DNA from: Paracoccaceae bacterium
Lineage (GTDB): Bacteria; Pseudomonadota; Alphaproteobacteria; Rhodobacterales; Rhodobacteraceae
Direction of reading: 5' to 3'
NCBI GenBank assembly: GCA_002708925.1
Contig: PAPN01000055.1
Coordinates: 1 to 64,000 of the forward strand
DNA length: 64,000 nt
The translations under genes and the position numbers were made by a program. The notes under the pieces are model-generated. The model had not been told where the DNA came from and ran no database searches. It saw nothing but the letters and a program-made list of their open reading frames with translations. Below are positions 4,323 to 35,027 of the stretch, piece after piece (positions within the stretch are counted from its first letter, which is position 1; each line of letters starts with the position of its first letter).

Positions 4323-5078
4323 ATGCAAATGAACGAAACCTGCGCCGTCATCACTGGGGGCGCTTCGGGCCTGGGCGAGGCCACCGCCCGCCTGTTCGCC
4401 GCGTCGGGGGCCAAAGTGACCCTGCTGGATCGTGACACCAAGCGCGGCCCGCAGGTCGCGGCTGAGATCGGCGGCACTTTTGTCGAAACCGACGTCACCA
4501 GCGAAGACTCGGTGCAAAACGCCATGTCCGCTGCCGTTGCCGCGATGGGTAAGATCAACACCGCGGTGAATTGCGCGGGCATTGGCACGGCCGAAAAGAC
4601 CCTGGGCAAAAACGGCCCGCACAGTCTTGAACATTATCAGCGCATCCTGAACGTGAACCTGGTGGGCAGCTTCAATGTGGCGCGCCTGGCTGCCGCTGAA
4701 ATGGCCAAGAACGATCCCACCCCGGACGGTCAGCGCGGCGTGATCATCTCAACCGCCTCGGTTGCGGCGTTTGATGGGCAAAAGGGCCAGGTGGGCTATG
4801 CGGCCTCGAAGGGCGGGATCGTGTCCGGCACCCTGCCCATGGCCCGCGATCTGCAACGCGAAGGCATCCGCGTGATGGCCATTGCGCCGGGGATTTTCCT
4901 GACCCCGATGCTGATGTCCCTGCCCGAAGAGGTGCGCGACCAGCTGGCTCAGGACGTGACCAACCCCAAGCGCCTGGGCGATCCCAGCGAATATGCCGCG
5001 CTGGCGCGTTTCATCTGCGAATGCGGCTATCTGAACGGCGAGGTGATCCGTATCGACGGCGCCCTGCGGATGCAGTAA
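4323..5078 (+). CDS. short-chain dehydrogenase, 3-hydroxyacyl-CoA dehydrogenase type (HSD10-like)
   Basis: A 251-residue classical SDR. The NAD-binding motif TGGASGLG is at residues 11-18, an Asp follows the second strand (LLDRD, favouring NAD over NADP), the NCAG motif is near 83-86, and the catalytic tetrad includes Ser146 and Y159-AAS-K163. Overall sequence resembles type II 3-hydroxyacyl-CoA dehydrogenase (human HSD17B10), acting in fatty-acid or branched-chain beta-oxidation; that assignment comes from pattern memory. The ATG at 4323 follows a strong AGAGGAG ribosome-binding site. It is probably cotranscribed with the AbrB-family gene upstream. Confidence 0.85.
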   Translation: MQMNETCAVITGGASGLGEATARLFAASGAKVTLLDRDTKRGPQVAAEIGGTFVETDVTSEDSVQNAMSAAVAAMGKINTAVNCAGIGTAEKTLGKNGPHSLEHYQRILNVNLVGSFNVARLAAAEMAKNDPTPDGQRGVIISTASVAAFDGQKGQVGYAASKGGIVSGTLPMARDLQREGIRVMAIAPGIFLTPMLMSLPEEVRDQLAQDVTNPKRLGDPSEYAALARFICECGYLNGEVIRIDGALRMQ

Positions 5079-5080
5079 AC

Positions 5081-5122
5081 GGCCGGGCGCGTCCGACTGG
5101 GGCGCGCCCTACCCGGCCTTTT
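5081..5122. terminator. probable bidirectional terminator between SDR and ABC-F genes
   Basis: Between convergent genes lies a hairpin with inner stem GGGCGCG / CGCGCCC and outer GGCC / GGCC pairs, followed on the plus strand by TTTT (5119-5122). It overlaps the last codons of the minus-strand gene. Confidence 0.5.
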
Positions 5123-6920
5123 CCTCAAGCTCCAGCCACTCTTCTTCGGCGGCTGCCAGAGCCTGCTGACGTTCGACCAGCGCATCGGTCGCTTTTTGGA
5201 ATTTCACCGGCTCTTTGGTAAACAGATCCGGATCCATCAGGAACTCTTCCAGCTTGGCGATTTCCGCTTCCAGCCGCTCAAGGATCGCTGGCAGGGCCTC
5301 CAGCCGGTGCTTTTCTGTAAAGCTTAACCCGTCCTGAGCGGTTTGAGGGGGCTTTTCTTGCTTTAACTTATCTGCTTTGTGCTTTGTTTTTACAGGAGTT
5401 TCCGAAGGATTTTCCTGACGCTGAGACTGATAGTCCGACCAGCCGCCAGCATAGACAATCGCCTGGCCATTCCCCTCCATCGCGACAGTCTGCGTGGCGA
5501 CCCGATCCAGAAAATCCCGGTCGTGGCTGACCAGAAGAACCGTGCCATCATAATTGTCCAGCAGTTCCTGAAGCAGGTCCAGCGTTTCGACATCCAGATC
5601 GTTCGTCGGTTCGTCCAGCACCAGCAGATTGCTTTCGCGCGCCATCAGCTTGGCCAGCAGAAGCCGCGCTTTTTCCCCACCGGACAAGGACTTAACGGCC
5701 GCTCTTGCCTGGCGTTCGTCAAACAGAAATTCCTTTAGATAGCCCACCACATGTTTGGGCTGGCCGCGCACCAGCACCTGATCGGCCTTCCCCGAGACCC
5801 GCATGTCCGGATCGCCCGTCAGACTGTCCCACAGGCTCATTTCCGGATCCAGCTGCGCGCGGGTCTGATCGAACACCGCGGGCAACAGATTCGTGCCGAT
5901 TTTCACGCTACCACTGTCGGGCACCTCTTGGCCCATCAGCATTTTCAGCAGCGTGGTTTTACCCACGCCATTGGGCCCGACAAAGGCCACGCGATCCCCG
6001 CGTTCGACCTTGATCGAGAAATTTCGCAGGATAAGCTTTTCCCCGTAAGTCTTTGTAATACTGTCCGCTTCGAACACCTTCTTACCGGATTTCGGCCCCG
6101 AGGCCAGCTCCATCGCGGCGGTGCCCTGCCGTTTGATCTGCGCGCCGCGTTCGGCCTTGAGCGCGTGTAGCGCCCGCAGCCGCCCCTGATTCCGCTTGCG
6201 CCGCGCACTGATGCCTTCGACGGCCCAGCGGGCCTCGGATTTGATCTTGCGATCCATCTTGTGGCGCTGGGTGTCTTCCTCTTCCCAGACTTTATCGCGC
6301 CATTCTTCGAAATCCGCGAAACCTTTTTCCTGACGCCGCGTCATTCCCCTGTCAATCCAAAGGGTTGCACGCGTTAGTTCACGTAAAAATGCCCGATCGT
6401 GGCTGATCAGAACATAGCCCGCGCGGGTCTGTTTCAGCTCATTTTCCAGCCAGGCAATGGCCTCGATATCCAGATGGTTCGTGGGTTCGTCCAGCAGCAT
6501 CAGCTCAGGCGCTTCGGCCATCAGTTTTGCCAAAGCCGCGCGCCGCCGTTCCCCGCCCGAGGCCGTTGCTACCTCGCGCGCGGGATCGAATTTCAGCCCT
6601 TCGCCCGCCATTTCGACCTTATACATCTCGGATGGGTCCAGCGCGCTGGCGGCATAGTCCCCCAACGTGGAAAATCCTGACATATCAGGATCTTGCTCCA
6701 TATAGCCAACGCTGATTCCAGGCGGGATGATACGCGTTCCGTGGTCCGGCTCGACCAGTCCGGCCATCACCTTCATCAATGTGGATTTGCCCGAACCATT
6801 GCGCCCCACCAGCGCCACCCGGTCGCCCGGCTGAACCACCAAAGACAGGTCATGAAACACAGGATCGCCGCCAAAGGTCAGCGAAATATCGGTCAGCTGT
6901 AAAAGAGGTGCACGTGCCAT
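5109..6920 (-). CDS. uup: ABC-F family ATP-binding protein (Uup-like)
   Basis: A 603-residue soluble protein with two ABC ATPase domains and no membrane segments. Domain 1 has Walker A GRNGSGKST (about 39-47), signature SGGERRR and DEPTNHLD; a charged ABC-F linker follows; domain 2 has GPNGVGKTT, LSGGEKAR and DEPTNDLD. The C-terminal 100 residues are Lys/Glu-rich and predicted coiled coil, as in Uup. ABC-F proteins act on ribosomes rather than in transport, and Uup also influences transposon excision and DNA repair phenotypes. The start at 6920 directly precedes the first ABC domain. The paralogue call (Uup rather than EttA or YheS) rests on the C-terminal coiled coil. Confidence 0.85.
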   Translation of the reverse strand: MARAPLLQLTDISLTFGGDPVFHDLSLVVQPGDRVALVGRNGSGKSTLMKVMAGLVEPDHGTRIIPPGISVGYMEQDPDMSGFSTLGDYAASALDPSEMYKVEMAGEGLKFDPAREVATASGGERRRAALAKLMAEAPELMLLDEPTNHLDIEAIAWLENELKQTRAGYVLISHDRAFLRELTRATLWIDRGMTRRQEKGFADFEEWRDKVWEEEDTQRHKMDRKIKSEARWAVEGISARRKRNQGRLRALHALKAERGAQIKRQGTAAMELASGPKSGKKVFEADSITKTYGEKLILRNFSIKVERGDRVAFVGPNGVGKTTLLKMLMGQEVPDSGSVKIGTNLLPAVFDQTRAQLDPEMSLWDSLTGDPDMRVSGKADQVLVRGQPKHVVGYLKEFLFDERQARAAVKSLSGGEKARLLLAKLMARESNLLVLDEPTNDLDVETLDLLQELLDNYDGTVLLVSHDRDFLDRVATQTVAMEGNGQAIVYAGGWSDYQSQRQENPSETPVKTKHKADKLKQEKPPQTAQDGLSFTEKHRLEALPAILERLEAEIAKLEEFLMDPDLFTKEPVKFQKATDALVERQQALAAAEEEWLELEEKAG

Positions 6921-26043: not shown

Positions 26044-26889
26044 ATGAAATTTCAGGGTACAGACGCGTATGTGGCCACCGACGATCTGAAGGTGGCGGTC
26101 AATGCCGCGGTCACGCTGGAACGGCCGCTGCTGGTCAAGGGCGAGCCTGGCACGGGCAAGACCGAACTGGCCAAACAGGTGGCCAGCGCGCTGGGTCTGG
26201 AAATCATCGAGTGGAACATCAAGTCCACCACCAAGGCGCAGCAGGGCCTGTATGAATACGATGCGGTCAGCCGCCTGCGCGACAGCCAACTGGGCGAAGA
26301 GCGCGTCCATGACGTGAAAAACTACATCAAGAAGGGTAAGCTGTGGCAGGCCTTTGAGGCCGGCAAGAAAGTCGTGCTGCTGATTGACGAGGTCGATAAG
26401 GCCGATATCGAATTTCCGAACGATCTGCTTCAGGAACTCGATAAGATGGAGTTCCACGTCTATGAAACAGGCGAGACCATCCGCGCAGCGCAGCGCCCGA
26501 TCGTGATCATCACCTCGAACAATGAAAAGGAACTGCCCGACGCTTTCCTGCGGCGCTGTTTCTTTCACTACATCCGCTTCCCCGAACCCGAAGTGATGAA
26601 ACAGATCGTCGAGGTCCACCACCCCGACATCAAGCAGAAACTGCTGACCACCGCGCTGACGCAATTCTACGAAATCCGCGAGACCTCGGGGCTGAAGAAG
26701 AAACCCTCGACCTCTGAAGTTCTGGACTGGCTGAAACTGCTGCTGGCCGAGGACATGACCCCCGAGGATCTGAAACGCGACGGCGCCAATGCCCTGCCCA
26801 AACTGCACGGCGCGCTGCTGAAAAACGAACAGGATGTGCACCTGTTCGAACGTCTGGCCTTTATGGCGCGCAATCAGCAGCGCCGGTAA
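26044..26889 (+). CDS. MoxR-type AAA ATPase
   Basis: A 281-residue AAA+ ATPase of the MoxR group. Walker A GEPGTGKT is at 33-40, Walker B VVLLIDEVDKAD at about 112-123, sensor 1 TSNNEKELPDAF and an arginine-finger region LRRCFFHYI follow. MoxR ATPases act as chaperones with VWA-domain partners to mature or activate enzyme complexes. Such a partner is encoded three genes downstream at 28525. The start has AGAAGGG upstream. It is followed by an 88-bp gap holding a strong stem-loop, then a lipoprotein gene. Confidence 0.9.
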   Translation: MKFQGTDAYVATDDLKVAVNAAVTLERPLLVKGEPGTGKTELAKQVASALGLEIIEWNIKSTTKAQQGLYEYDAVSRLRDSQLGEERVHDVKNYIKKGKLWQAFEAGKKVVLLIDEVDKADIEFPNDLLQELDKMEFHVYETGETIRAAQRPIVIITSNNEKELPDAFLRRCFFHYIRFPEPEVMKQIVEVHHPDIKQKLLTTALTQFYEIRETSGLKKKPSTSEVLDWLKLLLAEDMTPEDLKRDGANALPKLHGALLKNEQDVHLFERLAFMARNQQRR

Positions 26890-26925
26890 GCTTTTGCCGG
26901 CAAGCTTTTCGCCGCAAACGCGTAT

Positions 26926-26952
26926 GCCGGAACAAAACCCCATTGTTCCGGC
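26926..26952. other. intercistronic stem-loop between the MoxR and lipoprotein genes
   Basis: A perfect 10-bp stem GCCGGAACAA / TTGTTCCGGC with a 7-nt loop. It lacks a T-run, so a role in mRNA processing or stability is more likely than termination. Just before it are two imperfect copies of AAGCTTTTGCCGGC (from 26889). Confidence 0.55.
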
Positions 26953-26977
26953 GCGCCGACACGGGCAGGATAGGCGC

Positions 26978-28357
26978 ATGAGAAAACTGCTCTTTAGTTT
27001 TGCGGCGATATGTACGCTGGCTGGGTGTATGCCCGCCGGCACAGGCGGCCCCGCCAGCCGCGCCGCCGCCAGCCCCATCGGCGGGCTGCCCCCGATGAAA
27101 ACCTTCTCCAGCCAGCCGCTGGAATCCGTGCGCGCCTCGAACCGTGACATCGCGCGCGATTTTCTGGACCTGGCCTTTCAGCTGGAATCGGGGCGCGAAC
27201 TGCCCGTCTTTACCCGGTTCGAAGGCCCGATCACCCTGCGCGTTACCGGCCGCGCTCCGGCCCATATGCGTAACGATCTGAACCGCTTGCTGGCGCGGCT
27301 GCGCCATGAGGCCGGGATCGACATTACCCTGACCAACAGCGCCAGCGCCTCGATCACCATTGCGGCGGTCAAACGCGCCGATATTCAGCGGCACCTGCCC
27401 CAGGCGGCCTGTTTCGTGGTGCCCAATGTGTCTTCTTTGTCCGAATATGCCCGCGCCGCCCGCGCCGTCAAAACCGATTGGGTGCAACTGAATGCCCGCA
27501 GCAAAATGGCGATTTTCGTGCCGGTCGATTCCCCGCCGCAGGAAACGCGCGATTGCCTGCACGAGGAACTGGCCCAGGCGCTGGGGCCGCTCAATGACCT
27601 GTATCGCCTGCCCGATTCGGTGTTCAATGACGATAATGTGCACACGGTTCTGACGCGCTATGACATGCTGATCCTGCGCGCCTATTACGCGCCCGAGCTG
27701 CGCAACGGCATGTCCCGCGCCGAGGTGGCCCGCCGCCTGCCCTCGATTCTGGTGCGGCTGAACCCGGCCGGGCAATCGCGCACCTCGCGCGGGCTGTCGC
27801 AGACGCCGCGCGCCTGGATCGAGGCAATTCAGACCGCCCTGGGCCCCGGCACCCGCCCCGTCGCGCGCCAGCAGGCCGCGCGCAGGGCCCTAGCCATCGC
27901 GCAGAATGCGGGCTGGACCGATCATCGCATGGGGTTCTCCCATTATGCGCTGGGGCGGCTGACCCAAAGCATCAACGCCCAGGTCGCCCTGTCGCATTTC
28001 CGCGCCGCGCAGGCCTATTACACCCGTGATCCGGTCACGCAACTGCACGCCGCCCATGTGGCCGCGCAGTTGGCCGCCTTTGCCATCACCGAAGGCAACG
28101 GCGCCGAGGCCCTGCTGCTGACCGGCCCCTATCTGTCCGTCGCCGCCCGGCACGAGAACGCGGCGCTGCTGTCCACGCTGCAATTGCTACGCGCCGAGGC
28201 GCTGGAGCTACAGGGCCGCCCGCGTGAGGCTCAGGCCGTCAGGCTGGACAGTCTGGGCTGGGCGCGATACGGATTTGGCGCGGACCGGGCGGTGCGGGCA
28301 AAACTGCACGAAATCACCTCCCTGTCCCCACTGAACAGAGGAAACGGGCAATCATGA
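26978..28357 (+). CDS. DUF2927-type lipoprotein
   Basis: A 459-residue predicted lipoprotein: a lipobox ending at Cys17 (TLAGC), then a Pro/Ser-rich linker, then a domain of about 250 residues matching what I recall as DUF2927 (motifs WVQLNARSKMAIFVP, HEELAQALGPLNDLY, DSVFNDDN and LRAYYAPELRNGM). HEELAQ with nearby acidic residues looks metalloprotease-like but is not a canonical HExxH, as position 5 is Ala. The C-terminal ~130 residues are helical, possibly TPR-like. It overlaps the next gene by ATGA, so it belongs to the MoxR-VWA operon. Function unknown. Confidence 0.8.
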   Translation: MRKLLFSFAAICTLAGCMPAGTGGPASRAAASPIGGLPPMKTFSSQPLESVRASNRDIARDFLDLAFQLESGRELPVFTRFEGPITLRVTGRAPAHMRNDLNRLLARLRHEAGIDITLTNSASASITIAAVKRADIQRHLPQAACFVVPNVSSLSEYARAARAVKTDWVQLNARSKMAIFVPVDSPPQETRDCLHEELAQALGPLNDLYRLPDSVFNDDNVHTVLTRYDMLILRAYYAPELRNGMSRAEVARRLPSILVRLNPAGQSRTSRGLSQTPRAWIEAIQTALGPGTRPVARQQAARRALAIAQNAGWTDHRMGFSHYALGRLTQSINAQVALSHFRAAQAYYTRDPVTQLHAAHVAAQLAAFAITEGNGAEALLLTGPYLSVAARHENAALLSTLQLLRAEALELQGRPREAQAVRLDSLGWARYGFGADRAVRAKLHEITSLSPLNRGNGQS

Positions 28358-28521
28358 TCGTCATCGCAGGCGCAATTTTGGGTTTGATCTTCGGTATTTA
28401 CCGCGCAAAGAAACGCGGCGGAAACGGCAAGGACATCGCGCAACATGCGGTGGTTTACATGTTGTTGTTTCTGATTATCGGCCTGTTTGTCACCATTATC
28501 ATCCACCGCGCGGCGCTTTGA
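28354..28521 (+). CDS. small two-helix membrane protein (55 aa) in the MoxR-VWA operon
   Basis: The ATG overlaps the lipoprotein stop (ATGA, 28354-28357), and the TGA at 28519-28521 is 3 bp before the VWA gene. The product has a hydrophobic N-terminal helix (IVIAGAILGLIFG), a short basic loop YRAKKRGGNGKD and a second helix (VVYMLLFLIIGLFVTIII). The tight packing on both sides supports it as a real coupled gene. I recognise no family; a membrane anchor or partner for the neighbouring proteins is a reasonable inference. Confidence 0.75.
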   Translation: MIVIAGAILGLIFGIYRAKKRGGNGKDIAQHAVVYMLLFLIIGLFVTIIIHRAAL

Positions 28522-28524
28522 TCC

Positions 28525-29709
28525 ATGTTCCTGCCCTTCTTTGAAAACCTCAGAAAAACCGGCGTGCCAGTGTCCCTCCGCGAGTATCTGAGCTTTCTGG
28601 AAGCGATGAAAGCCGGGCTGGTCACCTACGATGTCGAAGGGTTCTATTATCTGGCCCGGACCTCGATGGTGAAGGACGAACGCAACATCGACAAGTTCGA
28701 CCGCGCCTTTGCCCAGACCTTCAAGGGGCTGGAGCAGATCCAGCTGGGTGACGTGCTGGAGGCAATCGACCTGCCTGCGGACTGGCTTGAAAAAATGGCC
28801 GAAAAATATCTCAGCGATGAGGAAAAAGCCGAGATCGAAGCTTTAGGAGGCTTCGATAAGCTTATGGAAACGCTGAAAAAACGCCTGGAAGAGCAAAAAG
28901 GACGTCACCAGGGCGGGAATAAATGGGTCGGCACGGCGGGCACCTCGCCTTTTGGGGCCTATGGCTACAATCCCGAAGGGGTGCGCATCGGCCAGAAAGA
29001 AAGCCGCCATCAGCGCGCCGTCAAAGTCTGGGATAAGCGTGAATTCAAGAACTTAGACGACAAAGTTGAACTGGGAACGCGCAATATCAAGGTGGCTCTG
29101 AAACGTCTGCGCAGCTGGGCGCGCGATGGCGCCCACGAAGAGCTGGATCTGGACGGTACGATCCGCGCCACCGCCGAGCACGGCTATCTGGACGTGCAGA
29201 CCCGACCCGAGCGGCGCAACGCCGTCAAGGTGATCCTGTTTCTGGACGTCGGCGGCTCGATGGATCCGCATATCAAGGTGATGGAAGAGCTGTTTTCTGC
29301 CGCCAAATCCGAATTCAAACATCTGGAACACTACTATTTCCACAATTGCCTGTACGAAGGCGTGTGGAAAGACAACAAGCGTCGCTGGGATCAGCAGACC
29401 CCCACCTGGGAAGTTCTGCGCACCTATGGCTCTGATTATAAATGTATTTTCATCGGGGACGCCTCGATGTCGCCCTATGAAATCCACTATCCGGGCGGCG
29501 CGAATGAACATTGGAACCCCGAGGCCGGCCAGGTCTGGCTGGAACGCGCGCGCGAGCAATGGCCCGCGAATCTGTGGATCAACCCGGTGCCCGAACGCTA
29601 TTGGAGCTACACCCAATCCATCAAGATGATCGACGAGATTTTTGAAGGAAGAATGGTCTCTATGACATTGGAAGGATTGGAAAAAGGCATGAAAGAGCTA
29701 ACGCGCTAA
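28525..29709 (+). CDS. VWA-domain protein, CoxE-like (partner of MoxR)
   Basis: A 394-residue cytoplasmic protein without membrane segments. The N-terminal ~180 residues are helical and charged (FFENLRKTGVPVSLREYL; LETLKKRLEEQKG-like), and the C-terminal ~180 form a von Willebrand A domain. Its metal-site motif is DVGGSMD at 241-247 instead of DxSxS, so the first Ser is Gly. FIGDASMSPYE is probably the later metal-site element. The layout matches CoxE-like VWA proteins encoded beside MoxR ATPases. It starts 3 bp after the small membrane protein gene. Confidence 0.85.
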   Translation: MFLPFFENLRKTGVPVSLREYLSFLEAMKAGLVTYDVEGFYYLARTSMVKDERNIDKFDRAFAQTFKGLEQIQLGDVLEAIDLPADWLEKMAEKYLSDEEKAEIEALGGFDKLMETLKKRLEEQKGRHQGGNKWVGTAGTSPFGAYGYNPEGVRIGQKESRHQRAVKVWDKREFKNLDDKVELGTRNIKVALKRLRSWARDGAHEELDLDGTIRATAEHGYLDVQTRPERRNAVKVILFLDVGGSMDPHIKVMEELFSAAKSEFKHLEHYYFHNCLYEGVWKDNKRRWDQQTPTWEVLRTYGSDYKCIFIGDASMSPYEIHYPGGANEHWNPEAGQVWLERAREQWPANLWINPVPERYWSYTQSIKMIDEIFEGRMVSMTLEGLEKGMKELTR

Positions 29710-29828: not shown

Positions 29829-30518
29829 ATGCTGAAACTCATGCCCCTTTTGCTGGCGCTGCTATATGGCGTTGCGATGTACCGCGTGTCTGCCTGGCGC
29901 ACCCGCAAAGAGCTGGATTCGAAATCCACGGTCCTGGACGATCCCGAACTGGCCAGGGTGACGGACCGCCTGGCCGCCGCGCTGGAAATCCCCAGGGTGC
30001 GTGTCGATATTTTTGAGGTCGATCCCGTCAACGCGCTGGCTGCCCCCGATGGACGGGTTTTTGTGACGCGCGGCATGATCGAGCGCTATCAGCGCGGCGA
30101 CATCCTGCCCGAGGAAATCGCCAGTGTGATCGCGCATGAACTGGGCCATGTTGCGCTGGGGCATACCCGTCGGCGGATGATTGATTTTTCGGGGCAAAAC
30201 GCGTTGCGGACGGCCTTGGGTGCGATGCTGTCACGGTTCTTGCCCGGAATCGGCGGTCTGATCGCCGGGCTGATGACCCGCGTTCTGGCCGCGCATTTAT
30301 CGCGCGCGGATGAATACGAGGCCGACGAATACGCCAGCGCGCTGATGGTCAAGGCCGGGTATGGCACCGGCCCTCAAAAGGATCTGTTTGCCAAGCTGGA
30401 TCAGATGACCGGCGCGCATGGGGCTGCGGGCGTCGCCTGGCTGATGAGCCACCCCAAAAGCCGCGATCGCATCGCGCGGATCCAACAGAACGAGCGGAAA
30501 TGGGGTATCAGCGGCTAA
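29829..30518 (+). CDS. M48-family zinc metallopeptidase
   Basis: A 229-residue protein with an N-terminal membrane helix (about 2-20) and the zinc site H103-E-L-G-H107; the third ligand is probably a Glu in DEYEADEYA. A hydrophobic hairpin (GIGGLIAGLMTRVLAAHL) sits between them, and WLMSHPKSRDRI is the typical C-terminal HP motif of M48. HtpX/Oma1-like M48 enzymes degrade misfolded membrane proteins. It follows the VWA gene by 119 bp and may be transcribed separately. Its end overlaps the convergent PIN gene by 11 bp. Confidence 0.88.
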   Translation: MLKLMPLLLALLYGVAMYRVSAWRTRKELDSKSTVLDDPELARVTDRLAAALEIPRVRVDIFEVDPVNALAAPDGRVFVTRGMIERYQRGDILPEEIASVIAHELGHVALGHTRRRMIDFSGQNALRTALGAMLSRFLPGIGGLIAGLMTRVLAAHLSRADEYEADEYASALMVKAGYGTGPQKDLFAKLDQMTGAHGAAGVAWLMSHPKSRDRIARIQQNERKWGISG

Positions 30519-31050
30519 GCGCCTTACCCAGGCGCGGCAGCCGGGCCTTTTTCAGCAGCTTGCGCGTGTCCCAGGTCTCGCCGGACAAAAGATCAGCCTG
30601 TTGGCGCACCTGTTCAACGGCAGCAGCCACGGCCGAAGGGGCCGCCAGCCAGCAATGATACAGCAGCTCATCGGGGGTTTGGCGCGACAGGCCTTCCTCG
30701 GCCAGGGTGTGTTTGGGGAAATCCTTGGCGTTCATCGTCAGCAGCACATCGGCCGAGCCCGCAATCGCCGCCGCCAGCACATGCACATCGGCCGGATCGG
30801 GCAGATAAAGGCGGTTTTCCAGCGAGGGCGGCCAGCTGACCTCGGCCCGTGGCCAATCGCGCGAGACCAGCGCGATCTCGGTGCGGGCCTGCGGCTCGCC
30901 CGTGGGGCCCAGTTTGCGCGCCGCCCGCGCCCATTCCTCAAGGATCCGCGCAGACCAGAGCGGCTGAAACGCGCCGGTGCGCGCCACGGCCAGCAGAACC
31001 TCTCGCATCACGGTGGGGTACAGAACGCAGGTATCCAGCAGCACCTTCAT
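30508..31050 (-). CDS. PIN-domain ribonuclease-like protein
   Basis: A 180-residue PIN-fold protein with the acidic residues of the family in order: Asp6 in MKVLLDTCVLYP, a Glu in RILEEWARA, the Asp pair in LPDPADVHVLAA and Asp in MNAKDFP. PIN domains cut RNA. No small antitoxin gene is adjacent, so a VapC-type toxin is unlikely. Its ATG overlaps the stop of the upstream rRNA methyltransferase gene (ATGA), pointing to coupled expression and possibly an RNA-related role. The target is unknown. Confidence 0.8.
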   Translation of the reverse strand: MKVLLDTCVLYPTVMREVLLAVARTGAFQPLWSARILEEWARAARKLGPTGEPQARTEIALVSRDWPRAEVSWPPSLENRLYLPDPADVHVLAAAIAGSADVLLTMNAKDFPKHTLAEEGLSRQTPDELLYHCWLAAPSAVAAAVEQVRQQADLLSGETWDTRKLLKKARLPRLGKALSR

Positions 31051-32255
31051 AGGCGGAAGAACAGCGCCTTCAGATAGCCGCTTTCGGCCAGTTGCGGCAT
31101 CAGGGGATGGTCCGGCCCGGCATAGCCCGTGTGGATCAGCTGAGCCGCGCGCCCTGCCCGTCCGATCCCACGCACACAGGCACCACGGAATTTCGTCAGA
31201 TCGGCGGCGTGCGAACATGAACACAGCCCCAGATACCCCCCCGGCGCCACCAGAGGCGCGGCCAGCCGGGCAACGCGTTCATAGGCGCGCAGGCCGGCCT
31301 CCAGCGCCTTTTTCGAGGGCGCAAAGGCCGGCGGATCGCAGATCACCACGTCGAATTGCGCGCCTTCCTCGGCCAGTTTTGTCAGCACGTCAAAGGCATC
31401 GCCCTTGCGGGTTTCGAACCGATCCGCCGCGCCCATGGCCTCGGCCCCCTGGGCTGCCAGATCCAGCGCCGCCTGCGAGCCATCGACAGCCAGGGCGCTG
31501 CGCGCGCCCCCGGCCAGAGCGGCCAGGGAAAACCCGCCCACATGGCTGAACACGTCCAGCACACGCGCGCCATTGGACAGGCGCGCGGCGAAGGCGTGGT
31601 TGGGCCGCTGATCAAAGAAAAGGCCGGTTTTCTGCCCCGCAACCAGATCGGCCATATAGACCGCTCCGTTCATCGGCACCGGGATGGGCGCGTCCGGCAG
31701 GGCTCCGGCGGCGATACCGCTGTCCTCGTCCAGCCCCTCCAGCGCCCGCGCCCGCCCCGAGGCGTTCTTCAGCACATGTTTCACGCCCGTCACCTGGATC
31801 AGCGCCGCCACCAGCGCATCAAACCGCGCATCGGCCCAGGCCGCATTGGGCTGCACCACGGCGGTGTCCGCGAAGCGATCAATCACCACGCCGGGCAGCC
31901 CGTCGGCCTCGGCATGGATCAGGCGGTAAAACGGGGCATCGTACAGGCGCGCGCGCATTTGCAGCGCTTTCTCGATCCGGGCAGCGAACCAGGCCTGATC
32001 AATCTGGGCCGTCACGTCCCGGTCCAGCATCCGGCACATGATCCGGCTACCGGGGGTGACCGCCACCAGCCCCAGATCGGCGCGGTTCTCATCCTGCAAT
32101 ACGGCCACGGTGCCGGGGGTCAGGGATTTGGTGCGCCGGTCGGTGACCATTTCATTGTCATAGACCCAGGGAAACCCGTGCCGGATGGCGCGGGCGTTGG
32201 ATTTGGGCTTCATACGGACGGTCGGCAGGCTGGTGGGCTGGGCTGTATCTGTCAT
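31047..32255 (-). CDS. class I SAM-dependent rRNA methyltransferase (RlmI-like)
   Basis: A 402-residue protein: an N-terminal PUA-like RNA-binding domain (RHGFPWVYDNEM), then an RlmI-like middle domain (VIDRFADTAVVQ), then a Rossmann methyltransferase domain with VLDVFSHVGGFSLAA (SAM-binding) and VICDPPAFAPSK (catalytic region for m5C). RlmI methylates C1962 of 23S rRNA in E. coli; equivalent specificity is inferred. The ATG at 32255 has GAGGG upstream and is preferred to one at 32285. It is coupled to the PIN gene by a 4-bp overlap. Confidence 0.85.
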   Translation of the reverse strand: MTDTAQPTSLPTVRMKPKSNARAIRHGFPWVYDNEMVTDRRTKSLTPGTVAVLQDENRADLGLVAVTPGSRIMCRMLDRDVTAQIDQAWFAARIEKALQMRARLYDAPFYRLIHAEADGLPGVVIDRFADTAVVQPNAAWADARFDALVAALIQVTGVKHVLKNASGRARALEGLDEDSGIAAGALPDAPIPVPMNGAVYMADLVAGQKTGLFFDQRPNHAFAARLSNGARVLDVFSHVGGFSLAALAGGARSALAVDGSQAALDLAAQGAEAMGAADRFETRKGDAFDVLTKLAEEGAQFDVVICDPPAFAPSKKALEAGLRAYERVARLAAPLVAPGGYLGLCSCSHAADLTKFRGACVRGIGRAGRAAQLIHTGYAGPDHPLMPQLAESGYLKALFFRL

Positions 32256-32294: not shown

Positions 32295-35027
32295 TCAATC
32301 CGGATCGCCCACCAGAATAAACGGTGCCCAATAGGCCGGGTGCGACCAGGCGGGCTGCTGAGGCGTGTCGATCATCGCCAGAATGGCCTGGCGCTGCGCC
32401 TGAGCGGCGCGCAGATCGGGATCGGCGGCGCGGCGGGCGAACAGATCGGTCATCAGCGCCACGGCCGAGCGGCTCTCGACCGGCCAGTGCGACACCATCA
32501 ACGCCCGCGCGCCCGCATAGGTAAAGGCCTGCGCAAGCCCCGACAGCGCCTCGGCCCCCGGTTCATCCCCGACGGCGGTGTTACAGGCCGACAGCACCAC
32601 CCAATCGGCATTCAGCCTGAGCGAGGCAATTTCCGAGGCCGTCAGCAGCCCGTCCTCGCCCTGCCCGGCGGTCAGCGCCAGCGCGGGTTCCGCCAGTTGC
32701 TGCTGCGCGGTCACCATATCGCCCGCCACCAGCCCATGCGTGGCGAAATACAGCACGCGGTAATCCGACAGGCTCTGGGCTTTCAGCTGCGCCTCGCTGG
32801 CCATGGACTGGGCCAGAACGTCCCTGTCCTGCGCGGCCCCGACGGCCTGCGCCACGGCGCGCACCTCGATTGCGGTTTCGGGCAAGGGCGCCAGCGCGCC
32901 GCGCATCGCCGCACGGGTGACATCCAGCCCGGCCACCCGATCCCGATTTTCTGACGGGTTGGATTCCGATTGGCCGAAAATCGGATCGGCCAGACCAAGG
33001 AACGGTTTGCTGGCCCTTTCGGTCTGGCGGGCAAGAGCCGTCAGCCGCAGCGAATCCACCGAAGGGATCACCGTCATCGCATGGTGGCGGATCAGCCAAT
33101 CGGCCTGGCTGCGATCCGGGGCCGCATTGCGCACCAGCAATTGCGGCGGCACCGAGGACATAGGCCCGCGCAGCTCGGTATAGATGTGGGTTTTTCCCTC
33201 CAGAAGATCGGCCACCACCCCGAACGTCTGGGTATAAATCCAATGCGCCGCATAGACATCAAAGGCATCGCGGCTGGCCTGTTTGGGCTGTTTCAGAGCA
33301 ATCCCTGCCCGCACCCCCATCCGCAAATCAATCGAGCCCCGCAGATCGCGGATCGCCATGTTCAGACTGTCCAGGCTAACCGGCATTTCGCGCCATTCGG
33401 CCCGATCGCGCGTGGCGACGAAAATGAAATCCCAGTCTTGCTCTTGGTCGCCGATGTCCAGAATGACCAGCGCCTCCTCGGGGCCCAGCATGGATTGGAC
33501 CTCGGCCAGGGACAGCGGCGCAGCCCCATAAAGCGCATCAAAAGGCAGATCCCGATCACGCAGGCTGGCGCCGACCGCGTTGATCCGATCAGACAGCGCA
33601 GAGATCTCGGCCCGGATCTGGCGCTCTTGCTCGGGGCGGCGCTGCGCGTTGGGCAGGCCGGCGAAGTAGGAAATCTCGTCTTGCAGCTGGGCCTGGCGGC
33701 GCTGCATATCGGTGAAATCGCGCATCATCTGCGATTTGGCCGTATCCTGCACCTGCACCCGCTGCGCAAGAGTGGCATAGGCCGCCCGCGCCGCGCTGCT
33801 ATAATTGACCTGCAAAATGCGAAAGGCCTGGCGCGTCACCTCGGCCGGGTCCAGCGCGCCGGAGTCTTTCGCCCGCCACAAGGTCTGCTGCAACAGCAGG
33901 CGGCTGCCATTGCCTGCGGCCTCGGCCTTCAGGGCCAGATCCCAGGCGGCGCGGTGATGGCCCAGATCGGACTCCATCGCGCCCAGATTCAGATAGGCCC
34001 GCCCGGTGAACGGATGGGTGGCCGAAAGCAGGCGTTCACGCAGAGCAACGGTTTCGCGCATATCCTGCAAGGCCAGATCGAACTGAGCCGTGCCCAGCGT
34101 CCCCCAAGACCGCATAAGCGCCCGGTGCCCCAGATATTCCGCATAGGGCAAGGATTCCCGGCCGAACCTGGCCAGAATACCCGTGTGCCATTGCTCCATG
34201 ATCCGCGCCATCTGCTGCATGTCGCGCAGCTCGTACAGCACCAGGGCATATTCCCCCAAAGTGTGCACCGTTTCAGGATGGTTCGGCGGGCGGCAGGTCT
34301 GCGCGCGGATCAGACTGTCCGCATAGGCATCGCGGGCTTGCTCTGTCTGCCCCAATTCCTGCAACAGATGCGCCCGCTGACGGGCAACAGCGCAGGCATA
34401 GCTGGCGGCGCGACCATCCTCAGAGACATCCATAAGCGGCAGAACCTGTTCAAAAATCCGCAGCGCCTCGGCCTGGAACCCCAGCCCCTTCAGAATGCCC
34501 GCCGTGTTGTATTGCCACAGCAATGTCTGGCTGTTTTCAGCCCCCCACACGGTTTCGGCAAAGCGGGTTGCCTCTAACGCCAGAGGCAGCGCATCGTTGG
34601 CCGATCCCATCCGGGCCAGGTGCATCGCCAATTGCATGGCCGCATCCATCCGCGCGGGGTGATATTTGAAATAGTTCTGTTCCCACAGCTTATAGGCTGC
34701 CTCCATTTCGCGCAGAGCCTCGGCGTCGCGCCCGCGCAGATGTATGATATTGGCCAGAGCCTGCCGCAGCCGCAGGGTCTTGATATGCGCTGGCCCGCCG
34801 GCCTCGGTGACCGTCTGGATCAGCGGACGAAGCGCGGCCTCGGCCCCGGCATAATCGCCTTGTCGGAAATGGCTGTCCATCAGCGCCTCTTGTGCGGCAA
34901 TCTGACTGTCCAGCGGTTCGCCGAACATCTGCGCATCAGCGGAATCGGCCGAGATAAAAGCCAGAAATAAGGCCAGAAACAGGGCCAGAAACAGGGCCCG
35001 AGAAAGAGCATTAATCAAACGTATCAT
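32295..35027 (-). CDS. exported TPR and CHAT-domain protein (caspase-like peptidase fold)
   Basis: A 910-residue protein. A signal peptide with repeated LFLA tetrapeptides (residues 12-24) ends near the ADAQ at about 33. Residues ~40-420 are helical TPR-like repeats, a coiled-coil region follows at ~430-500, and the C-terminal ~350 residues are a CHAT domain. The caspase-type dyad is present: His764 in YFATHGLV and Cys815 in LSACNTA. It is therefore predicted to be an active cysteine peptidase in the periplasm or outside the cell. The next gene (RlmI) is 39 bp downstream on the same strand but functionally unrelated. No obvious substrate or partner is adjacent. Confidence 0.88.
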   Translation of the reverse strand: MIRLINALSRALFLALFLALFLAFISADSADAQMFGEPLDSQIAAQEALMDSHFRQGDYAGAEAALRPLIQTVTEAGGPAHIKTLRLRQALANIIHLRGRDAEALREMEAAYKLWEQNYFKYHPARMDAAMQLAMHLARMGSANDALPLALEATRFAETVWGAENSQTLLWQYNTAGILKGLGFQAEALRIFEQVLPLMDVSEDGRAASYACAVARQRAHLLQELGQTEQARDAYADSLIRAQTCRPPNHPETVHTLGEYALVLYELRDMQQMARIMEQWHTGILARFGRESLPYAEYLGHRALMRSWGTLGTAQFDLALQDMRETVALRERLLSATHPFTGRAYLNLGAMESDLGHHRAAWDLALKAEAAGNGSRLLLQQTLWRAKDSGALDPAEVTRQAFRILQVNYSSAARAAYATLAQRVQVQDTAKSQMMRDFTDMQRRQAQLQDEISYFAGLPNAQRRPEQERQIRAEISALSDRINAVGASLRDRDLPFDALYGAAPLSLAEVQSMLGPEEALVILDIGDQEQDWDFIFVATRDRAEWREMPVSLDSLNMAIRDLRGSIDLRMGVRAGIALKQPKQASRDAFDVYAAHWIYTQTFGVVADLLEGKTHIYTELRGPMSSVPPQLLVRNAAPDRSQADWLIRHHAMTVIPSVDSLRLTALARQTERASKPFLGLADPIFGQSESNPSENRDRVAGLDVTRAAMRGALAPLPETAIEVRAVAQAVGAAQDRDVLAQSMASEAQLKAQSLSDYRVLYFATHGLVAGDMVTAQQQLAEPALALTAGQGEDGLLTASEIASLRLNADWVVLSACNTAVGDEPGAEALSGLAQAFTYAGARALMVSHWPVESRSAVALMTDLFARRAADPDLRAAQAQRQAILAMIDTPQQPAWSHPAYWAPFILVGDPD

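Follow-up and report, generated by a model that had tools for sequence, protein, structure and literature searches.

MoxR-type AAA+ ATPases paired with proteins carrying a VWA domain are common, and to our knowledge few of their clients are known. The sections of the NorQD study cited here (PMC9976466) report that this pair acts on a membrane client, for which the metal ion-dependent adhesion site (MIDAS) of NorD is needed, and that changes in the MIDAS abolish client activity, with NorQ binding kept. A second point of comparison is offered by the inactive ADAMs, metzincins in which, according to the consulted part of PMC11266112, the histidine ligands are replaced by Q, N and other residues, as in ADAM11 (QTLGQNLGMMWN) and ADAM23 (QSLAQNLGIQWE). 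Here we describe a locus in a 64,000-nucleotide stretch of DNA from a Paracoccaceae bacterium (GenBank assembly GCA_002708925.1, contig PAPN01000055.1, positions 1 to 64,000 of the forward strand; hereafter the window), which encodes a MoxR-type ATPase and a CoxE-like VWA protein together with a DUF2927 lipoprotein and a 55-residue small membrane protein, to which we give the working label SMP. The best supported reading, to which we assign a probability of roughly 0.4, is that the locus comprises two separable modules sharing SMP, which would recruit both of them to one membrane site; an obligate four-part machine is disfavoured. The features of the locus are:

26044-26889, + strand: MoxR-type AAA+ ATPase, 281 aa; best Pfam match PF07728 (AAA_5), 1.2e-14
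26978-28357, + strand: DUF2927 lipoprotein, 459 aa; PF11150 (DUF2927), 1.9e-52
27143-27742, + strand: DUF2927 domain, residues 56-255; predicted metzincin/matrixin fold
27563-27598, + strand: EELAQALGPLND, degenerate metzincin motif EExxQxxGxxND, residues 196-207
27614-27631, + strand: DSVFND at the putative place of the Met-turn, residues 213-218; equivalence deduced from fold and motif order
27809-28276, + strand: putative tetratricopeptide repeat (TPR)-like helical superhelix, residues ~278-433 of the DUF2927 lipoprotein
28354-28521, + strand: SMP, 55-aa two-helix membrane hairpin; signature GxxxGxxxAx4GxxxDxx[QH], basic loop
28525-29709, + strand: CoxE-like VWA protein, 394 aa; PF05762, 2.1e-06, 27.8 bits vs cut-off 26.4
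29245-29259, + strand: MIDAS-type motif DVGGS of the VWA protein, residues 241-245; DxGGS replacing DxSxS
29829-30518, + strand: M48 peptidase (HELGH), PF01435, 6.1e-27; downstream of the VWA gene

The four-gene cluster had been proposed in an earlier note made from the sequence alone, and it is real: the family assignments were borne out by Pfam and that of SMP by a two-helix reading, and the described junctions were confirmed, the stop of the lipoprotein gene and the start of the SMP gene overlapping in ATGA and a gap of 3 bp separating SMP from VWA. The gap between MoxR and the lipoprotein gene is 88 bp. Inspection by eye revealed in the MoxR protein a Walker A (GEPGTGKT) and a Walker B motif (LLIDEVDKAD). 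The start of the lipoprotein was placed at the ATG at 26978 (26834 in the list of open reading frames), which gives MRKLLFSFAAICTLAGC with the lipobox LAGC and the codon of Cys17 at 27026-27028. This cysteine is invariant in both alignments used for motif analysis (15/15 rows in one, which includes the short paralogue described below, and 80/80 in the other), and the lipoprotein assignment is made by sequence only. The PF11150 score of the protein is 178.8 bits against a cut-off of 26.2, and its nearest named relatives among the matches listed are from Thalassovita (67-68% identity). For SMP, comparison with Pfam and NCBIfam identified no family over the cut-off.

Four separate searches (MoxR, VWA, the long form of DUF2927 and SMP) carried out in one set of 121 genomes of the order, which belong to a single family, found MoxR in 117, VWA in 117, long DUF2927 in 113 and SMP in 120 of them. 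Long DUF2927 was counted at E<=1e-30, with one of the 113 matches (G165) partial and covering residues 27-303 only; three of the genomes (G000, G003 and G018) had supplied rows to the SMP profile itself. MoxR and VWA are co-inherited, with identical sets: both are present in 117/121 genomes and neither in four (G066, G120, G138 and G144), where the only MoxR matches are distant (<=37% identity). By this phyletic pattern the VWA protein is the partner of MoxR. MoxR, DUF2927 and VWA are all present in 109 genomes. The DUF2927 and SMP genes are adjacent in all 112 genomes that have both (median gap 22.5 bp by match ends), and SMP lies just upstream of VWA, within 3 kb, in 114/117, the distance being within 20 bp in 87 of the 114; the three exceptions all come from genus g65, whose DUF2927-SMP pair is intact but located apart from VWA and MoxR. 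This adjacency (112/112 and 114/117) shows that the arrangement is not due to chance; through most of the family the two middle genes go together and are closely linked with VWA, as the earlier note had it. MoxR is the loosest member, found within 6 kb of DUF2927 in only 90/109 genomes. In 13 of the remaining 19 it is on another contig, so some of these separations may be assembly breaks.

Two further samples show the same association. The first, selected by VWA, comprises 61 relatives (37 of the window's family and 24 from outside), of which 46 have the VWA gene, including 37/37 in the family (in two pieces in G017). At the family loci a DUF2927 gene or fragment lies <=2.4 kb upstream in 33/37 and SMP within 1 kb in 34/37. 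SMP adjoins VWA also where DUF2927 is missing, at L067 and at L036, the latter with neither DUF2927 nor MoxR within 5 kb; L067 supplied a row to the SMP profile, together with L034, L064, L073 and L075, whose SMP was spotted by eye, and L036 did not. The second sample, selected by DUF2927, comprises 80 named loci, with SMP in 78 (tblastn), VWA within 2.6 kb in 77 and an M48 peptidase as the downstream neighbour in 35; of the three loci with no VWA nearby, one is at a contig end and two have VWA farther off. Most Rhodobacteraceae genomes tested carry the trio of DUF2927 lipoprotein, SMP and VWA. At one locus with no DUF2927 (L042), a two-helix protein is encoded between MoxR and VWA, about -154 to -28 before VWA; it shows no clear similarity to SMP (E 4.8) and is a possible SMP analogue.

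The case for separable modules that share a membrane protein rests mainly on genomes in which part of the locus is absent. Long DUF2927 is missing from eight genomes (six of genus g24, G142 and G172), all of which have MoxR and VWA, and the four genomes that lack MoxR-VWA all keep DUF2927; no genome lacks both sides. At the site between dksA (upstream, on the - strand) and a PIN gene (downstream), three genomes (L205-L207) have DUF2927-SMP-M48 with no MoxR-VWA, a relative of the M48 peptidase standing directly 3' of SMP, one (L223) has DUF2927 alone, and two (L224 and L225) have MoxR-SMP-VWA-M48. SMP remains with whichever side persists (120/121), the exception being the genome that keeps DUF2927 only. 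Such retention is a pattern, not a contact. These independent absences in both directions indicate that neither MoxR-VWA nor the lipoprotein strictly needs the other, and the suggestion of the earlier note that the ATPase-VWA pair works with the lipoprotein finds no support here in the form given there.

Among the 24 genomes from outside the family, VWA was found in nine, with MoxR within 2.2 kb in 8/9, and at none of these nine loci is DUF2927 or SMP beside VWA. This suggests that the MoxR-VWA pair came first and that the window's family acquired the middle genes later. Conservation of the gene order had been offered as a check across the alphaproteobacteria; the DUF2927-SMP-VWA order is found through most of the family and breaks down outside it, where the refuting condition named in the earlier note, absence of the middle two genes from most genomes with the pair, does apply. 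SMP as a general alphaproteobacterial gene was rejected: in a search that scored at most 23 candidates per genome, matches at E<=0.001 came from 6/289 genomes of the class, of which four belong to the window's family and the other two gave partial matches inside 325-aa frames. There were no matches to PF11150 in 14 control genomes, and a search for viral relatives of DUF2927 gave 46 pattern matches, 0 of which were confirmed by tblastn. The MIDAS of the VWA protein reads DxGGSM in 46/46 VWA loci, in none of which is the usual DxSxS found; by analogy with NorQD, the protein may bind a client without a classic MIDAS metal site. Membership of the pair in MadB-MadC was considered and rejected (NF047784, 127.7 bits vs 475; NF047783, 11.1 vs 600).

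In the two-module reading, module A would be the older alphaproteobacterial pair, in which a MoxR ring and its CoxE-like VWA adaptor would remodel a client as NorQD-type pairs do. Module B, found beside module A only in the window's family, would be the lipoprotein with its predicted metzincin fold and TPR-like region, whose most likely role is to bind, and not cleave, a client in the periplasm or envelope. SMP would be the hub. An alignment of 25 copies revealed that G10, G14, A18, G23 and D27 are invariant and Q30 nearly so, and the gene is under purifying selection (median ratio of nonsynonymous to synonymous differences, pN/pS, 0.48, with mean pS 0.60, for 13 genes of equal length compared in 78 pairs). 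The loop between the helices carries basic residues. According to the positive-inside rule, a basic loop faces the cytoplasm, and this orientation is to be expected for the loop of SMP. A cytoplasm-facing basic loop, a GxxxGxxxA helix motif and a gene that overlaps or abuts those of both the lipoprotein and the VWA protein would suit a hub, and since the SMP gene contacts both neighbours and stays with the remaining module, the protein is most likely what brings the two modules to the same membrane site.

Several points weigh against this reading. The hub role is deduced from linkage and from patterns of absence; SMP is not beside VWA in genus g65, and one genome has DUF2927 without SMP. dksA and other neighbours are also conserved, which means that general synteny explains some of the linkage. 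Six of the eight DUF2927 absences come from one genus (g24), and the absences are counted per genome. Finally, extra copies of SMP adjoin genes for apolipoprotein N-acyltransferase (Lnt) or for an M23 peptidase, with neither module present, which suggests that SMP may serve lipoproteins generally.

The extra copies bear on a second explanation, possible though tentative, in which SMP and DUF2927 form a lipoprotein-handling pair, SMP holding, presenting or retaining the acylated lipoprotein, and MoxR-VWA is a mere operon neighbour. A strong extra copy occurs in 7/121 genomes, and a partial one in G070. Of six strong copies with readable flanks, four (L197, L198, L200 and L201, at about 4990-5235) directly follow and overlap the gene for Lnt (PF20154 plus PF00795), and LspA is encoded near two of them (identified by Pfam in L197 and by eye in L201). 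Such neighbours, the adjacency of DUF2927 and SMP in 112/112 genomes and the retention of this pair in three genomes without MoxR-VWA are what this explanation would lead one to expect. It does not account for the two DUF2927-less genomes in which SMP stays between MoxR and VWA, nor for SMP beside VWA in genus g24; moreover, the remaining two extra copies stand behind the gene for an M23 peptidase (recognised by Pfam in L202 and by eye in L203), in stretches where no Lnt turned up. Several of the extra copies beside Lnt are in metal-type clusters; Pfam identified SCO1 nearby in L198 and P-type ATPases in L197 and L202. As judged by titles and abstract openings, no literature on SMP was found.

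That all four proteins form a single obligate trans-envelope machine, the ATPase-VWA pair acting through SMP on or with the lipoprotein, is improbable. The tight order and overlaps in the window and the DUF2927-SMP-VWA order in most of the family would agree with such a machine, but the independent absences in both directions count against obligate coupling, as do the lack of MoxR near DUF2927 in 19/109 genomes and the 9/9 VWA loci outside the family that have no middle genes.

The DUF2927 domain of module B is predicted to have a metzincin (matrixin) fold. AlphaFold2 modelled the full-length lipoprotein from 80 sequences (79 of the 80 selected loci and the window; L118, with a frame-broken DUF2927, was left out) with a predicted local distance difference test score (pLDDT) of 90.3. 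The domain (residues 38-268) was also folded separately, because TPR matches filled much of the fold-search list of the full-length protein, and gave a pLDDT of 89.0. Foldseek identified matrix metalloproteinase 13 (MMP-13) as the best match in the PDB (E 2.4e-04), and in the VIA-align comparison the 50 rows listed are all metzincins (Z 9.3-9.9, root-mean-square deviation 3.0-3.8, 130-153 residues aligned). For residues ~278-433, comparison of the profile with PDB sequences gave a best E-value of 1.5e-08, to an engineered TPR protein; the region is helical in the AlphaFold2 model and reaches a VIA-align Z of 17.2, and the Pfam scan gave no TPR match in the lipoprotein at E<=1.

The metzincin prediction is reflected in the sequence motif. 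The residues E196, E197, Q200, G203, N206 and D207 are invariant in 15/15 and 80/80 rows, and EExxQxxGxxND fits the spacing of the zinc motif HExxHxxGxxH(D), all three zinc histidines being replaced by the invariant E, Q and N; HExxHxxGxxH itself is found in none of the rows, all of which (15/15 and 80/80) have EExxQxxGxxN. Spacing and fold point to the register E196-E197-x-x-Q200-x-x-G203-x-x-N206-D207, with H195 outside it. The Met-turn methionine is also absent, the putatively equivalent position 216 being F in 15/15 rows and F or Y in 80/80. The earlier note had compared HEELAQ (residues 195-200) with a zinc protease site while calling it not canonical; the motif is there and is indeed no canonical zinc site, but the note's reading was shifted by one residue from the metzincin register. 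H195 is not fully invariant (13/15 and 79/80), and a zinc-protease reading of HEELAQ was rejected, with E196, not H195, at the first ligand position and Q and N at the others.

The fold assignment has its own weak points. It rests on structure prediction, because the sequence comparison with metzincins is not significant: hhalign aligned ELAQALGP to EIGHSLGL of the M10 family in the metzincin register with a probability of 0.2% and an E-value of 0.35 over 8 columns. In a profile test with 10 of the 29 M10 sequences from that comparison, the score of the whole segment, from an alignment with a one-residue gap that also pairs H195 with the first histidine, was matched or exceeded by 1/1000 column shuffles; for the segment downstream of the motif it was 176/1000, which is not significant. 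Sequence-level proof of metzincin homology therefore fails. In addition, only two Foldseek matches reach E 0.001, ranks 6, 7, 21 and 33 are glycosidases, and VIA-align re-aligned only the 1000 chains supplied by Foldseek. In the window's genome, contigs C22, C23 and C60 contain three M10 matches with equal scores and frame length, which looks like a repeated or redundant assembly.

With these reservations, the DUF2927 domain is probably a binding pseudo-protease that would not cut its ligand. That it is instead a working hydrolase whose metal site is formed, unusually, by E196, Q200, N206 and D207 in place of histidines is very unlikely: the invariance of these residues, and of E197 where the catalytic glutamate would be, in 15/15 and 80/80 rows speaks for it, but the zinc ligands of metzincins are histidines, the Met-turn methionine is lost as well, and the replaced set resembles that of the inactive ADAMs (PMC11266112, consulted part). 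No literature on the DUF2927 domain was found in the collection searched.

The window's genome encodes a second, shorter DUF2927 lipoprotein (312 aa; L078:7249-8187, contig C49) flanked by the genes for TelA and for an SPFH-GYF protein; a PF10112 gene, presumably XpaC-like, is upstream in the cluster. Among 38 loci of the short form, which are the best-scoring PF11150 matches listed and not a random set, TelA is upstream in 37 and SPFH downstream in all 38. The TelA, SPFH and MoxR modules are regarded as cytoplasmic and membrane-linked. The long and the short lipoprotein thus each adjoin a module of this kind. It is conceivable, though speculative and on balance unlikely, that DUF2927 represents a class of receptors built on the metzincin fold, their zinc histidines having given way to an invariant set of oxygen ligands (E, Q, N and D) that might accept calcium or a peptide end, and that it serves as an envelope reading head linkable by SMP to the cytoplasmic MoxR-VWA motor, the second lipoprotein doing likewise for the TelA-SPFH module. 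A survey of phage shock protein systems puts forward a coupling of such envelope-stress systems to lipoproteins of the cell surface (PMC11237479, as far as consulted); the terms SPFH, XpaC, MoxR and VWA are absent from the main text of that survey. As judged by titles and abstract openings, no literature was found on the TelA-DUF2927-SPFH cluster.

As to the surroundings of the locus, the PIN-domain protein (30508-31224, - strand) belongs to the RSP_2648 family (NF046100, 267.9 bits) and often neighbours the DUF2927/VWA locus elsewhere. Another downstream gene is presumably that for RlmI, and a protein of 910 aa with TPR and CHAT domains (PF12770, 1.1e-51) is encoded at 32295-35027 (- strand). 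In L061, L063 and L065 DUF2927 is immediately preceded by a gene of ~150 aa that looks GNAT-like by eye. A scan for promoters and terminators found 3 and 6 sites, respectively, where shuffled sequences gave 1.7 and 5.2, too little to go on.

The locus shows that the MoxR-VWA pair, present in 117/121 genomes, has a near-constant small membrane companion (SMP, 120/121). The DUF2927 domain gains a predicted fold and a testable idea, that of a protease shape used for binding, and the natural deletions in both directions offer ready comparisons for separating the two modules. Compared with NorQ-NorD and other MoxR-VWA pairs, the locus shares a MoxR AAA+ protein with a co-inherited VWA partner; it differs from NorQ-NorD in its CoxE-like VWA protein with a DxGGS MIDAS, in the attached small membrane protein and in that no client gene was recognised in the locus. 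With the metzincins (MMPs, karilysin, serralysin-type PrtC) the DUF2927 domain shares the fold predicted over the 130-153 aligned residues and the motif order E-x-x-(H/Q)-x-x-G-x-x-(H/N), followed by S-(I/V)-(M/F)-N; it lacks the three zinc histidines and the Met-turn methionine, its sequence similarity to them is not significant by hhalign, and it is part of a lipoprotein with a putative TPR-like second domain. The inactive ADAM pseudopeptidases show similar histidine replacements (PMC11266112, in the part consulted), whereas DUF2927 belongs to a bacterial lipoprotein with another replacement set, the two being likened by motif residues only. The short lipoproteins of the TelA-DUF2927-SPFH clusters are of the same Pfam family and exhibit the same EExxQxxGxxND; the copy in the window's genome has no TPR-like region, and the neighbouring genes read there include none for SMP, MoxR or VWA. 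The parts of the locus are of known kinds, while their combination, the altered metzincin motif and the putative SMP hub are new.

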